Positions 53,417 to 57,739 of a stretch of DNA of 64,000 nucleotides are shown here, piece after piece. Position numbers and translations under genes: made by a program. The stretch covers positions 794,088-858,087 of the forward strand of contig NZ_JAIVCC010000005.1 of assembly GCF_020866905.1 (NCBI RefSeq). The letters run 5' to 3'. The first letter of the stretch is position 1, and each line of letters opens with the position of its first letter. Origin of the DNA: Salinimicrobium sediminilitoris (GTDB lineage Bacteria; Bacteroidota; Bacteroidia; Flavobacteriales; Flavobacteriaceae). Below the pieces are notes generated by a model. That model was not told the DNA's origin. It saw only the letters and a program-made list of their open reading frames with translations, and made no database searches.

Positions 53417-54439
53417 CTAAAGCAAATGTATTCCTGCCTGCGCCATTTCCTGCCTCATTGCTTCCGGCCAGATGCTTACCTGTACTTCTCCAATATGTTC
53501 TTTTCTTAACAGGAACATACACAACCTGGATTGTCCAATCCCGCCTCCTATGGTTTGGGGAAGCTTTCCTTCAAGTAACTGCTTGTGATAGAACAGTTGG
53601 CTTCTTGTTTCTGCCTGTCGCATTTTTAATTGCTGTTCCAGTATAGCGGCATCCACTCTTATTCCCATGGAGGAGAGTTCAAAGGCCTTTTCAAGCACCG
53701 GGTTCCATACCAGGATATCGCCGTTTAAGCCTTTTGTGGTAGCAGAGGTTGGGGAGCTCCAGTCATCATAATCGGGGGCGCGGCCGTCATGGAATTCTCC
53801 CCCCTGCAATTCCCCACCTATTCCTATAAGAAAGACAGCGCCATATTTCTTAGCGGCCATGTTTTCTCTTTCCTTTGGTGAAAGCCCGGGATATTTTTCC
53901 TGTAGATCTTCGGTATGCAAAAAAGTAATTTCTGCAGGAAGAATGGGAGTGAGTAGGGGATACTGGCTGGTTACTGCTGCCTCGGTGGCTAAAATGCCTT
54001 CATAGATCCTGGAGACCTGTTGTTTGAGGAATTCCAGGTGGCGATCTTCGGGAGCCATAACTTTCTCCCAGTCCCACTGGTCTACAGAGATCGAATGCAT
54101 AGGCCCCAGCTCATCATCGGGGCGCAGCGCCTTCATGTCGGTCACTATTCCCAAACCTGGTTCCAGCTCATATTCCTTTAAGCGCAGCCTTTTCCATTTA
54201 GCCAGAGATTGCACCACCTCGGCCCTCTGTTCCTGCATTTCTTTAATAGGGAAGCCTACAGGACGTTCTATTCCGTTGAGGTCATCGTTGATACCGGTGC
54301 CCTGGAGAACAACCGTGGGGGCAGAGACCCGCACTAAAGAAAGCTTCTCTTTTAAATGTTTTTCAAATTCGGTTTTTACGAAGTGTACAGCTTCTTCGGT
54401 TTCAAGTTTTCGCGATAGTTGTTGTAGTGTAGTTTTCAT
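53417..54439 (-). CDS. asnA: Aspartate--ammonia ligase (asparagine synthetase A)
   Basis: AsnA makes asparagine from aspartate, ammonia and ATP, with a class II synthetase fold. The 340-residue size is standard. Motifs: LVRVSAPTVVLQGTGINDDLNG, HSISVDQWDWE (motif 2-like), GIGGELQGGEFHDGRAPDYDDWS, GDILVWNPVLEKAFELSSMGIRVD, and motif 3 GGGIGQSRLCMFLLRK. The ATG at 54439 overlaps the stop of an Asn-rich upstream reading frame. The upstream region has two Asn-rich leaders with terminators, so its expression is probably governed by attenuation. Confidence 0.97.
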   Translation of the reverse strand: MKTTLQQLSRKLETEEAVHFVKTEFEKHLKEKLSLVRVSAPTVVLQGTGINDDLNGIERPVGFPIKEMQEQRAEVVQSLAKWKRLRLKEYELEPGLGIVTDMKALRPDDELGPMHSISVDQWDWEKVMAPEDRHLEFLKQQVSRIYEGILATEAAVTSQYPLLTPILPAEITFLHTEDLQEKYPGLSPKERENMAAKKYGAVFLIGIGGELQGGEFHDGRAPDYDDWSSPTSATTKGLNGDILVWNPVLEKAFELSSMGIRVDAAILEQQLKMRQAETRSQLFYHKQLLEGKLPQTIGGGIGQSRLCMFLLRKEHIGEVQVSIWPEAMRQEMAQAGIHLL

Positions 54440-54570
54440 AATTCTTGTTTTAGATTTTTAAGTAATAAAAAAGCCTGCCCCGGGAAGGAGGCAGGCTTAT
54501 AAGCACAGAGATCCTCTCCCCTGGGTGGCGGACTATTATTATTGATATTATTTGTTTGAAGTCGTTTCAT
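54436..54570 (-). CDS. Second asnA leader peptide (Asn-rich, 44 residues)
   Basis: ATG at 54570, 8 bases after the T tract of terminator 1. It begins MKRLQT and continues NNINNN, that is, five Asn (all AAT) in six codons at positions 7-12, then a proline/charged region. The reading frame runs through terminator 2 and its TGA overlaps the asnA ATG. Whether the whole frame or only its first part is translated is not known. Confidence 0.6.
   Translation of the reverse strand: MKRLQTNNINNNSPPPRGEDLCAYKPASFPGQAFLLLKNLKQEL
54466..54498 (-). terminator. Terminator 2 (attenuator) just before asnA
   Basis: On the minus strand AAGCCTGCC (54498-54490), ten-base loop, GGCAGGCTT (54479-54471), then T6. 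It lies about 30 bases before the asnA ATG, where a terminator makes sense only as a regulated one. GGGGAGAGG at 54521-54513 could pair with part of its 5' side, but this alternative is not convincing. Confidence 0.75.
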
Positions 54571-54578
54571 AATTGAGC

Positions 54579-54612
54579 AAAAAAAAGCCTTTCCTGGTGT
54601 GGGAAAGGCTTT
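54579..54612 (-). terminator. Terminator 1 (attenuator) upstream of asnA
   Basis: Perfect 11-bp arms AAAGCCTTTCC (54612-54602) and GGAAAGGCTTT (54594-54584) with T8 directly after. The upstream leader frame contains GGAAAGCT (54654-54647), which can pair with AGCCTTTCC of the 5' arm (one bulged C) and would prevent the hairpin. It might also terminate the egtD-DUF427 transcript. Confidence 0.8.
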
Positions 54613-54634
54613 AAATATTGTTTAAGGGATCTTG

Positions 54635-54712
54635 TTATACAATAATAGCTTTCCGCAACCTGAGTCGATTCAGATTGTTATTGAAATTATTATTGTTGTT
54701 ATTGAAAATCAC
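54635..54712 (-). CDS. First asnA leader peptide (10 Asn in 25 residues)
   Basis: Read from the DNA: GTG start at 54712, then Ile-Phe, six consecutive Asn codons (AAT AAC AAC AAT AAT AAT), Phe, three Asn, Leu, Asn, and an Arg/Leu-rich end, TAA at 54635-54637. The stop is 22 bases before terminator 1. Both AAT and AAC are used, so this is not simple-sequence DNA. The start codon is GTG, as no ATG is in frame; this is the weak point. Confidence 0.65.
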   Translation of the reverse strand: MIFNNNNNNFNNNLNRLRLRKAIIV

Positions 54713-54735
54713 CTGTTTGTGTCTTTTGATATTTG

Positions 54736-54766
54736 TAAACTTACTTCTTTTTTATTTACTGCCAAA
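54736..54766 (-). promoter_or_regulatory. Probable promoter of the asnA leader transcript
   Basis: Minus strand TTTG (54766-54763), 19 bases, TAAGTTTA (54743-54736), one mismatch from TAnnTTTG. Predicted start near 54730, about 18 bases before the leader 1 GTG and within 40 bases of the DUF427 stop. Confidence 0.55.
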
Positions 54767-54767
54767 T

Positions 54768-55049
54768 TTATTTTTCAATCTTAACTCCTTTCCAGAAGGC
54801 TACATGATCTTTGATTTTTGCAGCTTCAGATTTTGGATGAGGATAAAACCAGGCTGCATCGGGGTTTTTCTCTTCTCCCACCTTTAGGTGAAAATAGGAA
54901 GCCCGGCCTTTCCAGGGGTAGGTAGTGTGCGTGTCGCTGAGCTGAAAGAATTCAGCTTTGATAGCTTCGGGAGGGAAATACTGGTTGTTCTCCACTTCCA
55001 CTGTATTATCACTCTCTGCTATAATGGTGTTGTTCCAAATTGCTTTCAT
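54768..55049 (-). CDS. DUF427 domain-containing protein
   Basis: A 93-residue protein consisting of one DUF427 (NTP_transf_9-like) domain: MKAIWNNTIIAESDNTVEVENNQYFPPEAI, then YPWKGRASYFHLKVG and DAAWFYPHPKSEAAKIKDHVAFW, all diagnostic. Its ATG overlaps the egtD stop by 4 bases, so the pair is translated from one message. The function of DUF427 is unknown, and this coupling is the only clue. Confidence 0.92.
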   Translation of the reverse strand: MKAIWNNTIIAESDNTVEVENNQYFPPEAIKAEFFQLSDTHTTYPWKGRASYFHLKVGEEKNPDAAWFYPHPKSEAAKIKDHVAFWKGVKIEK

Positions 55050-56038
55050 AATCCTGTTCTTTTAAAAAGGTAATTTTTATAGCAGTTATCCTTGTCTGCC
55101 CAACTTCCTGCCATTTCCAGCCCGGCTTCTTCTGCAAGCCAAGCGATTGAGGTATCATCATATTTTTGAGACACTTCTGTATGTATTGTTTCCCATTTAT
55201 GGAAATGTACTTCCAGATTGAGTGCGTTTACCTGCACCGTTTGTTCTTTTGTGCTAACAAGATAACTTTTTGCTACGCCGGTTTCAGGATTGTAGAGCGG
55301 CCAGTGCATAAAAGTTTCCGGATCAAAATCGGCTTCCAGCTCCCGGTTCATCCGCGTCAACAGGTTCTTGTTAAAGGCTTCGGTAACTCCTGCACTATCA
55401 TTATAAGCGTCCAAAATCACCTGTGGCTCCTTTTTTTGATCCACCCCCATGAAAAACAGATCTTTTTCATGCATGGCAGAGGAGATCTTTTTAAGAAATG
55501 CAACGGCTTCTTCGGGAGTAAGATTCCCAATATTCGATCCCAGGAATAAAATTACTTTTTTCCTGTCCCGGTAATCTGCAAGACGGGTAAGTACATTTGC
55601 GTAGGTCCCTTGTTGTGGTTCTACATCTAATCCAGGGAACTCCTGTAGCAGGCTGCCACTTAGCTGTTCCAGCACATTCTTGCTTATATCGACCGGCAGG
55701 TATTTGTAGTCGTAACTTTTTTCCTGGAAATGTCTTAATAGCACCTTGGTTTTTTTCCCATCTCCAGCACCAAGTTCGATAAGGTCAAAACCGTTAAAAG
55801 AGGAAAAAGCGTCCCCTATTTCCTCCCTGTGCTGTACCAGTATATCGTACTCCTTTCCGGTAAGATAATATTCCGGCAGCTCCATGATCTTTTGGAAAAG
55901 TTCATCCCCTTTTTCATCATAGAAAAATTTGGAGCTTATCTTTTTAGGATAGGAGGTAAGGCCTTTGAAAACATCTTCGGCAAATTGCGTTTTAAATTCG
56001 GGAGGTTTTGTCTCGTTCATTGAAATAATTTTCCGCAT
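55046..56038 (-). CDS. egtD: L-histidine N-alpha-methyltransferase (EgtD)
   Basis: A 330-residue SAM-dependent enzyme that trimethylates histidine to hercynine, the first step of ergothioneine synthesis. Motifs: SSKFFYDEKGDELFQKIMELPEYYLTGKEYDIL at the N terminus, SAM-binding LIELGAGDGKKTKVLL, PVDISKNVLEQL, LFLGSNIGNLTPEEA, and the C-terminal WLAEEAGLE. The sulfoxide synthase EgtB is not adjacent. AGGAAAGTT precedes the ATG at 56038, favouring it over 56020. DUF427 overlaps its end. Confidence 0.93.
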   Translation of the reverse strand: MRKIISMNETKPPEFKTQFAEDVFKGLTSYPKKISSKFFYDEKGDELFQKIMELPEYYLTGKEYDILVQHREEIGDAFSSFNGFDLIELGAGDGKKTKVLLRHFQEKSYDYKYLPVDISKNVLEQLSGSLLQEFPGLDVEPQQGTYANVLTRLADYRDRKKVILFLGSNIGNLTPEEAVAFLKKISSAMHEKDLFFMGVDQKKEPQVILDAYNDSAGVTEAFNKNLLTRMNRELEADFDPETFMHWPLYNPETGVAKSYLVSTKEQTVQVNALNLEVHFHKWETIHTEVSQKYDDTSIAWLAEEAGLEMAGSWADKDNCYKNYLFKRTGL

Positions 56039-56138: not shown

Positions 56139-56921
56139 TTAAACCTTCTTGAGCGACATAGGTAGTAGAGAACTAACTGCTACGTCCTTTCCCGCTTTCT
56201 TACCGGGTTCAAATTGAGGTATACTTTTCAATTGTTTGATAACTTCTTTTGCAAATTCCTCTCCCCCGCCAAATATAACCACACGACCTACTTTTCCATC
56301 CACACCAACTACATAAGCAGCCGTAAGGGAATAGGTTCCCGGTTCTTTTATGGCTGAAATATTAACGTGGCGGTTCATCCAGTCATTAACCGAGGAGGTG
56401 GTGCAGGTTTGAATGTCTTCAGCTTTGCGGCACTTTTTCCAAATAGGCTGTTGATCTGCTTCTTTAGAAGTAACAACTTCTATTGGGGAAGTACCGGGTT
56501 CTGAAATGTAGAGAGGTACTTTCAGATCTACTATAACATTCGCCTTTTTGTTATCAAATTCCCCGGGGATAAAATGAGGCATATTTTTTAATCGTCTCTC
56601 CAATGCCTTTGCGGCTTCTTTAGGTATACCTTTTACGGAAGCCCAGCCTACTTTTCCTGTAGTGTCAATAATGATTCGTACAGGTATTTCAATCTTGCCT
56701 TCTTCAACGGTTGTCAATGCTCCTACTCCTGTGATATGCTGCAACACGTATCTTTCAATCAATTTGGCTGTACAGGCAGGAGTTTTTTCTACACATTCTG
56801 TGGAGGACGGAGACACATCAGCGTTAATTAAAGGAATAAAAGCTCCGGAATTACTTTCCTTCTGAGCAAAAGCTGCCGAAGTTGAAAGGGCCAGTAATAA
56901 GAAACACAGAAGGTTCTTCAA
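56139..56921 (-). CDS. TonB-like C-terminal-domain periplasmic protein, long
   Basis: A 260-residue exported protein: signal peptide about 1-19 (ending AFA), then two tandem TonB-C-like folds. The first (about 40-145) includes KIEIPVRIIIDTTGKVGWASVKGIPKEAAKALERRLKNMPHFIPGEF; the second (about 165-258) includes TAAYVVGVDGKVGRVVIFGG and KSIPQFEPGKKAGK. Neither has the N-terminal anchor of a true TonB, so it cannot transduce energy from ExbB/D by itself. It is the last gene of a three-paralogue run. Confidence 0.85.
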   Translation of the reverse strand: MKNLLCFLLLALSTSAAFAQKESNSGAFIPLINADVSPSSTECVEKTPACTAKLIERYVLQHITGVGALTTVEEGKIEIPVRIIIDTTGKVGWASVKGIPKEAAKALERRLKNMPHFIPGEFDNKKANVIVDLKVPLYISEPGTSPIEVVTSKEADQQPIWKKCRKAEDIQTCTTSSVNDWMNRHVNISAIKEPGTYSLTAAYVVGVDGKVGRVVIFGGGEEFAKEVIKQLKSIPQFEPGKKAGKDVAVSSLLPMSLKKV

Positions 56922-56932
56922 AGGGAAAAATT

Positions 56933-57346
56933 TTAGAAGGTGAAAGGAACTTTATAACTAATCTCCCTGGGTTTTCCTGCCAGTTGTCCCGGCTTCATTT
57001 GCGGGATAGCGAGAATTATTCGCTTTGCCTCCTCATTAAGCTCCTTTTTTGGTCCTTCTACTTTTTTTACCACCGGCTTTCCTTCTTTGTCGATCACAAA
57101 AGAAACTACTGCTTTTCCTCTAATATAGTTGCCATTGGCATCCTTCGGGAATTTATAATTTTCCTTGAGGTGCTGCGTAAGTTTCTTCCTAAAACACGCT
57201 TTTGTATCCCCGGCAGATGCTTCACATCCCGGCCAAATTGGTGGAATTTCTTTGGTGGTAACCGTATTATTGGAAACCTTCACTCCTTCCTGAGCAATGC
57301 TGGTGCCTGCGGTAAAGAGGAAAAGAATTAAAAATAGTTTTTTCAT
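56933..57346 (-). CDS. TonB-like C-terminal-domain periplasmic protein
   Basis: A 137-residue exported protein: signal peptide about 1-18, then a single TonB-C-like domain with PPIWPGCEASAGDTKACFRKKLTQHLKENYKFP, AVVSFVIDKEGKPVVKKVEGPKKELNEEAKRIILAIPQMKPGQLAG. The WPGCE and ACF cysteines are conserved between this and the next gene and could form a disulfide. It lies 11 bases before the longer paralogue and 18 after the shorter one. Confidence 0.87.
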   Translation of the reverse strand: MKKLFLILFLFTAGTSIAQEGVKVSNNTVTTKEIPPIWPGCEASAGDTKACFRKKLTQHLKENYKFPKDANGNYIRGKAVVSFVIDKEGKPVVKKVEGPKKELNEEAKRIILAIPQMKPGQLAGKPREISYKVPFTF

Positions 57347-57364
57347 GATCGGGAGATAAAAATT

Positions 57365-57739
57365 TTAAAAGCGATAGGTGCTGGTAAAGTTGCGTGTATC
57401 GGGTTCCCCGTTTAAAGTTCCCGGTTCCATATCAGGAATTTTTTCCAGCATATTTCTTGCTGCTTCATTAACCAAAGGCTCAGAGCCTTCCACCGATTTT
57501 ACTACAACTTCCCCTTTCTTATTAATGTCAAAGGAAACTTTCACCTGCCCACGTACGTAAGCATTGTTCTTCATGGGATATTCATAATGTTCCCTCACAT
57601 GGGCATTTAGTTTTTCGTTAAAACATTCTGTTTTGTCTTCGGCATCTTCACAACCGGGCCAAACCGGGGAGGTTTGTTGTGCCTGGGAAACTGTAATTCC
57701 CCCAAAGAAAAAACATGTGATAACTAAGAACTTCTTCAT
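57365..57739 (-). CDS. TonB-like C-terminal-domain periplasmic protein
   Basis: A 124-residue paralogue of its neighbour: signal peptide about 1-20 (VSQAQ), SPVWPGCEDAEDKTECFNEKLNAHVREHYEYP, VKVSFDINKKGEVVVKSVEGSEPLVNEAARNMLEKIPDMEPGTLNG. It ends in an aromatic RF. It starts 29 bases after the thyA stop, so could be cotranscribed with thyA. The role is unknown; it may be an adaptor or decoy for outer-membrane transporters. Confidence 0.87.
   Translation of the reverse strand: MKKFLVITCFFFGGITVSQAQQTSPVWPGCEDAEDKTECFNEKLNAHVREHYEYPMKNNAYVRGQVKVSFDINKKGEVVVKSVEGSEPLVNEAARNMLEKIPDMEPGTLNGEPDTRNFTSTYRF

Follow-up and report, generated by a model that had tools for sequence, protein, structure and literature searches.

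A probable tandem asparagine-codon attenuator upstream of asnA in Salinimicrobium and other Bacteroidota

The leader of asnA, the aspartate-ammonia ligase gene of Salinimicrobium sediminilitoris, very probably consists of two serial transcription attenuators of the ribosome-mediated type, each of which would read the level of charged tRNA-Asn. In the window, i.e. the whole stretch of 64,000 nucleotides that was analyzed, both units are flanked by a DUF427 gene (PF04248) and by asnA, the ATG of which lies at position 54439, all of them on the minus strand. Each unit comprises a short open reading frame (ORF) crowded with Asn codons, an intrinsic terminator and a predicted antiterminator pairing that is exclusive with this terminator (Table 1). 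As in trp- and his-type attenuators, codons for the product of the regulated enzyme, here asparagine, are clustered in both units and are followed by an intrinsic terminator ahead of the gene. These elements are conserved among relatives and their geometry suits a translating ribosome, on which basis stalling at the Asn codons and a response of asnA to asparagine would be expected.

Table 1. Features of the asnA leader region, given as positions of the window.
Feature	Position	Strand	Basis
putative promoter, TTTG-N19-TAAGTTTA, Bacteroidota-type boxes	54736..54766	(-)	comparison of first leaders
leader ORF 1, GTG start, 25 codons, 10 Asn, TAA stop	54635..54712	(-)	read directly
putative anti-antiterminator (1:2) hairpin over last Asn codons	54656..54686	(-)	folding and swap test
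antiterminator 5' arm of unit 1 (region 2), GGAAAGCT	54647..54654	(-)	pairing energy
intrinsic terminator 1 (regions 3:4), then T tract	54584..54612	(-)	-14.8 kcal/mol
leader ORF 2, ATG start, 5 Asn in codons 7-12	54436..54570	(-)	read directly
Pro-Pro-Pro codons, immediately 5' of antiterminator arm; proposed ribosome pause site	54523..54531	(-)	inference
antiterminator 5' arm of unit 2	54513..54522	(-)	pairing energy
intrinsic terminator 2, then T tract	54471..54498	(-)	-19.5 kcal/mol
asnA, aspartate-ammonia ligase (regulated gene)	53417..54439	(-)	PF03590, 326.4 bits, cut-off 27

Unit 1 is organized as the initial annotation had claimed: an ORF with ten Asn among 25 codons, VIFNNNNNNFNNNLNRLRLRKAIIV (54712-54635), precedes a strong terminator with a T tract, both of which can be read directly. 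The element GGAAAGCT, proposed there to pair with the 5' arm of terminator 1, lies at 54654-54647 as given; its pairing in the window amounts to -9.0 kcal/mol (shuffle P 0.04) and its role as antiterminator is supported by a swap test across 16 representatives, described below. In the 1:2 hairpin, positions 54677-54670 pair with 54663-54656, and the TTTC of a Phe codon (54686-54683) can pair with the GAAA of the antiterminator arm; the window's own 1:2 pairing is weak (swap rank 11 of 16, shuffle P 0.45).

As for unit 2, the five Asn codons and the strong terminator ahead of asnA were confirmed, but the ORF is not a small closed leader. It opens with MKRLQTNNINNNSPPPRGEDLCA (from 54570), meets no stop ahead of terminator 2 and ends at a TGA overlapping the asnA ATG, and unit 2 is hence to be regarded as a variant rather than a typical trp/his-type attenuator. 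An antiterminator equivalent to that of unit 1, which was missing from the initial annotation, was found here as well, with a pairing energy of -11.1 kcal/mol and a shuffle P of 0.27 for this sequence alone. Since leader 2 begins only 8-9 bases past the T tract of terminator 1, which leaves no room for a promoter, the two gates would operate in series. In Salinimicrobium sp. TH3 (locus L002), the nearest named relative with an AsnA 96% identical to that of the window, leader 2, about 130 bases before asnA, is likewise stopless and in frame with it, so that read-through could yield AsnA with a 44-residue extension.

A chance origin of the Asn leaders is excluded. On both strands of the 64 kb, leaders 1 and 2 are the only ORFs of 8-60 codons with an ATG or GTG start and at least five Asn per eight codons. 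When the 328-base leader was shuffled 5,000 times with its dinucleotides preserved, seven Asn in eight codons were never reached, and a single shuffle showed two separate starts with at least five Asn in eight. A detector was then defined by an ATG or GTG start with at least four Asn per eight codons close to it, followed 50-130 bases on by a hairpin of -9 kcal/mol or lower with a T tract. Applied to 136 non-repeated asnA loci, it scored 16 as two-unit, 11 as one-unit and 105 as devoid of units, the upstream sequence of the remaining four being too short; units thus occur at 27 of 132 loci and are absent from 105. By eye, L091 and L121, scored as one-unit, carry two, which changes the tally to 18 two-unit and 9 one-unit loci. 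The same detector found nothing upstream of 319 other long ORFs or in 850 random windows from leader-bearing loci, the latter including repeated species. The loci removed from the asnA set were limited to five that repeat named Salinimicrobium species, two copies of the locus in the window, and L122-L126, five fragments of a single broken gene. The latter lie in G694, a small genome of the order (contig 1, 16013-16499), where the asnA matches are broken up among several reading frames, in the manner of a decayed gene.

The pattern AAY5 matches the genome six times; two overlapping matches fall inside leader 1 and the other four are not leaders as judged by eye. The unit-1 peptide core, tried as a DNA-pattern finder, matched 124 of 397 family genomes, and it was discarded as the reversed control also matched widely; among 30 pattern-matched loci inspected, the three with leader and terminator were asnA loci already known. 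Terminator-like sites number four in 801 bases compared with 0.8 expected, terminators 1 and 2 being among them and one of the four mirroring terminator 1 on the opposite strand.

The alternative pairings were assessed by a swap test, in which the sequence following the Asn codons was paired either with the 5' arm of its own terminator or with those of other species. It covered 16 of 23 unit-1 and 14 of 22 unit-2 leaders, hand-chosen as one or a few per lineage with likewise hand-chosen leader starts, and treats related sequences as exchangeable. Own antiterminator pairings averaged -12.35 kcal/mol compared with -9.10 for swapped ones in unit 1 (16 rows), and -10.34 compared with -7.46 kcal/mol in unit 2 (14 rows); in both cases, p equaled the floor of 20,000 permutations, 5e-5. 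The antiterminator outperformed 95% of base shuffles in 14/16 representatives of unit 1 and 7/14 of unit 2, while the own terminator ranked first in only 5/16 and 6/14, respectively. In none of the four unit-2 rows from Salinimicrobium does the pairing surpass that of base shuffles (P 0.27, 0.62, 0.61 and 0.30), and support for the unit-2 antiterminator of the window is therefore drawn from the set. Taken as a set, both units possess an antiterminator that is exclusive with the terminator. In addition, the unit-1 hairpin between Asn codons and arm is more stable than in shuffles (mean -8.4 vs -4.4; P <0.05 in 13/23), and the arm formed by the Phe codons prefers its own partner in the swap test (-5.48 vs -4.16 swapped, p 0.00075). 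As a set, these results support an anti-antiterminator (1:2) in unit 1 for the ribosome-free state; one or two Phe residues are presumably kept amid the Asn run because their pyrimidine codons can pair with the arm.

The gene itself is rare: including the window's own genome in each count, asnA occurs in 30/397 genomes of the family, 10/12 of the genus, 9/395 of the order and 20/345 of the class. The attenuator interpretation of the initial annotation is supported, as all ten Salinimicrobium species and also members of other families of the class retain Asn runs, terminators and alternative antiterminators. Both units are retained in 10/10 Salinimicrobium species examined. Outside this genus, two-unit leaders precede asnA in other genera (L090, L092, L093), in other families of the order (L119, L121) and of the class (L150, L155), and in a Bacteroidia metagenome-assembled genome (L051), and single units were found at L044, L075, L089, L094, L095, L120, L149, L151 and L156. 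In an AsnA tree of 133 rows, built by a quick method and containing long branches, 21 of 25 rows of one clade with support 93 bear the leader, and six leader-bearing rows lie elsewhere (L044, L051, L075, L121, L149, L150).

Within the genus, it is the Asn residue that persists. Across ten Asn columns of unit 1 in ten species, 96 of 100 cells encode Asn (66 AAT, 30 AAC), both codons co-occur in 7 of the 10 columns, and the variable sites are distributed 5/3/11 over the three codon positions (15 codons). In unit 2, Asn fills 45/45 cells of five columns in nine species, the third positions of CCG CCA CCC do not vary, and no third-position excess was seen in the same nine species (5/7/5 over 16 codons), which show little variation. 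L111 was omitted from this unit-2 codon comparison for reasons of alignment; its frame is shifted behind the Asn run, resulting in a new peptide tail with an unchanged stop position. Covariation within the genus was considered as a test of pairing and set aside, given that variation is too low to help: two-sided changes are few, with none in the 8 antiterminator pairs of unit 1 or the 9 of unit 2, and pairing is lost in 9 of the 90 cells of antiterminator 2.

The geometry of the leaders agrees with stalling on the Asn codons, if the footprint of a ribosome is assumed, as an E. coli-like value, to extend from 15 bases ahead of the first A-site base to 12 bases past it. The antiterminator arm is wholly free in 45/45 leaders when the first Asn codon occupies the A site, and in 41/45 when the last one does. 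A ribosome at the unit-1 stop masks at least half of the arm in 20/23 leaders (exceptions L121, L151 and L156), the value for the window being 55%. Among unit-2 leaders, 10 of 22 stop at least 20 bases ahead of the terminator, and a ribosome at this stop masks the arm entirely in nine and by 0.60 in L075; four of these ten also carry Pro-Pro. In the other 12 (ten Salinimicrobium, L119 and L051), the stop lies at the foot of the terminator or is absent, and all 12 carry Pro-Pro or Pro-Pro-Pro, placed such that the arm is entirely masked once the codon following the motif occupies the A site of the ribosome. This placement is only suggestive, since the 12 leaders represent three lineages (Salinimicrobium, L119, L051), too few for significance.

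In the proposed mechanism, scarcity of charged tRNA-Asn would stall the ribosome on the Asn codons of unit 1 and leave GGAAAGCT free to pair with the 5' arm of terminator 1, whereupon RNA polymerase would pass. When asparagine is ample, the ribosome would reach the unit-1 stop and mask the arm, and terminator 1 would end the transcript just before leader 2. On transcripts without a ribosome, the Phe codons, together with the hairpin between them and the arm, would sequester the latter. Transcripts that pass terminator 1 would then be tested again in unit 2, which has Asn codons, an arm and a terminator of its own. The theory of single attenuators predicts sensitivity to rise with the number of control codons (PMC1183508). 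From a second gate, a tighter off state and a steeper response may be gained.

In the stopless unit 2, the ribosome might be parked over the antiterminator arm by a pause at polyproline in place of a stop codon. With ample Asn-tRNA, the ribosome would pass the Asn codons of unit 2, halt at Pro-Pro-Pro or Pro-Pro-Gly and mask the arm, so that the terminator could form. Such a leader would need no stop and would avoid the basal read-through that, in trp, arises when the ribosome is released early at the stop codon (PMC1183508). This reading is rendered plausible by the finding that, in E. coli lacking EF-P, intrinsic termination increases if a ribosome stalls at polyproline ahead of the terminator, the effect in the wild type being small (PMC5021804). 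On the other hand, the Pro codons of unit 2 could be kept solely as an RNA arm, namely an anti-antiterminator comparable to the Phe codons of unit 1, and not for pausing, which we consider a real possibility, though less likely than not. It accords with the invariant third positions of the three Pro codons in the nine aligned Salinimicrobium species and with folds of L003, L004 and L091, in which UCC or CC can pair with GG or GGA of the arm. Against it, the 1:2-type swap test yielded no signal for Pro-codon pairing in unit 2 (own -5.50, swapped -5.35, p 0.38), and L051, L092 and L119 retain Pro by means of other codons with weak folds.

Alternatives to two gates reading one signal appear less probable still. 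If unit 2 resembled pyrBI, a free-running ribosome would cover terminator 2 and let polymerase pass, leaving unit 1 as the only sensor of low asparagine. ORF 2 does enter or cross terminator 2 in the window, in 8/9 other Salinimicrobium species and in L051, and tight coupling across pyrL blocks its terminator (PMC5021804); this option is nevertheless improbable, as the ten early-stopping unit-2 leaders do not fit it, the Asn run would act in opposite directions in the two units, and the unit-2 antiterminator arms are supported as a set. Strong terminators are common behind a gene, here DUF427, and both hairpins might accordingly be plain insulators or ends of the upstream transcript, with the Asn-rich ORFs as by-products of A/T-rich DNA. 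The shuffles (0/5,000) and controls (0/319 and 0/850), the exchange of AAT and AAC with Asn retained, the constant spacing to the terminator and the recurrence of the same architecture behind different upstream sequences in other families render this explanation very unlikely. Equally remote appears a primary action of the leader peptides or short terminated RNAs in trans, to which cis attenuation would be secondary. An attenuator peptide, peTrpL, is reported to act in trans; the peptide tails of the asnA leaders, however, are not conserved, that of L111 being read in another frame, and the features that are kept are Asn codons, pairing and spacing. Two serial attenuators responding to charged tRNA-Asn therefore remain the preferred reading.

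Transcription of the leader presumably starts just upstream, where the initial annotation had placed a promoter match. A sigma-70 scan of the leader region gave no match on the asnA strand, but boxes resembling the Bacteroidota promoter consensus lie at 54766-54736. Among 27 first-leader loci, which include ten related Salinimicrobium, such a two-box site occurs upstream in 16 compared with 0.7 expected from base shuffles, and a -7-type box in 22 compared with 4.8 expected. A search of 3 kb around the leader against Rfam 15 gave no match approaching its gathering score; the best leader match was Thr_leader with 24.6 bits against a gathering score of 55, and no T-box appeared among the 16 matches listed up to E 10. 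Further upstream on the minus strand, the DUF427 protein gene (54768-55049) is preceded by one for a histidine-specific methyltransferase (PF10017, EgtD-like; 55046-56038), and two adjacent small proteins with TonB C-terminal domains are encoded within 56933-57739; a third ORF resembling this pair occupies 56139-56921.

Regarding asparagine supply, the genome encodes an asparaginyl-tRNA synthetase (AsnRS, 582 bits), the presence of which, together with an asparagine-making target gene, is counted in favor of attenuation by tRNA-Asn. Its best asnB-family protein scores 398 bits and may serve polysaccharides, because it adjoins what resembles a UDP-GlcNAc 2-epimerase. A shorter asnB type, recognized by a split match, is present in 23 of 31 family genomes and missing from the three asnA carriers among them (G000, G007, G023), so that the two genes look complementary in these 31 genomes. 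A single Asn leader with terminator also precedes asnB in 3 of 43 asnB-family loci examined, all in other genera, namely L176 (MSLNNNIRINNNFLQR), L182 (MSFNSLNNNNNELP) and L183 (MLGFNFNLNNNNNGTP); two of the three leaders end in Pro ahead of the stop.

If the proposed mechanism holds, asparagine would join the amino acids sensed by ribosome-mediated attenuation, in a phylum for which such control has hardly been charted, and the asnA leader would offer a natural case of two attenuators for one signal, in which the benefit of a second gate could be tested directly. The spread over several families would render the design rules readable, comprising the codon run, the Phe codons of the anti-antiterminator, the arm and the stop or Pro-Pro motif. 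Should unit 2 indeed exploit pausing at polyproline, what is known as a hazard of translation would act as the timing element of a switch.

With the trp-, his- and thr-type attenuators of E. coli and its relatives, the asnA leader shares an ORF rich in the product amino acid, a terminator and an exclusive antiterminator; unit 1 also has a putative anti-antiterminator (1:2), and a terminating ribosome would mask region 2. It differs from them in sensing, as proposed, asparagine, in its two serial units and in the window's unit 2, which is stopless before the terminator. The Salmonella mgtCBR leader likewise harbors two attenuator ORFs, mgtM and mgtP, one of them with Pro-Pro-Pro; these respond to different signals, ATP and proline, whereas the asnA units carry the same codon and a terminator each, and its authors call their two-signal tandem a "singular example" (PMC3641672). 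Within the same phylum, leader-peptide attenuation ahead of amino-acid operons was proposed from sequence and transcript data in Flavobacterium psychrophilum, where the conserved 5' elements named in the section concerned include those of pheA and hisG and not of asnA or asnB (PMC9723704). Short ORFs within long 5' UTRs are described for B. thetaiotaomicron, asnA not being named in the passages concerned (PMC7366714). The E. coli EF-P system resembles the pause proposed for unit 2, in that a polyproline-stalled ribosome lets a downstream intrinsic terminator act, but it consists of a six-proline reporter in an EF-P mutant and is not a natural amino-acid attenuator (PMC5021804). A full-text search of openly licensed PMC papers retrieved no earlier description of such an asnA leader. 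Hence, the general kind of control is already known, while asparagine as the amino acid, the use of two gates for a single signal and the stopless unit 2 are new as far as this literature search reaches.
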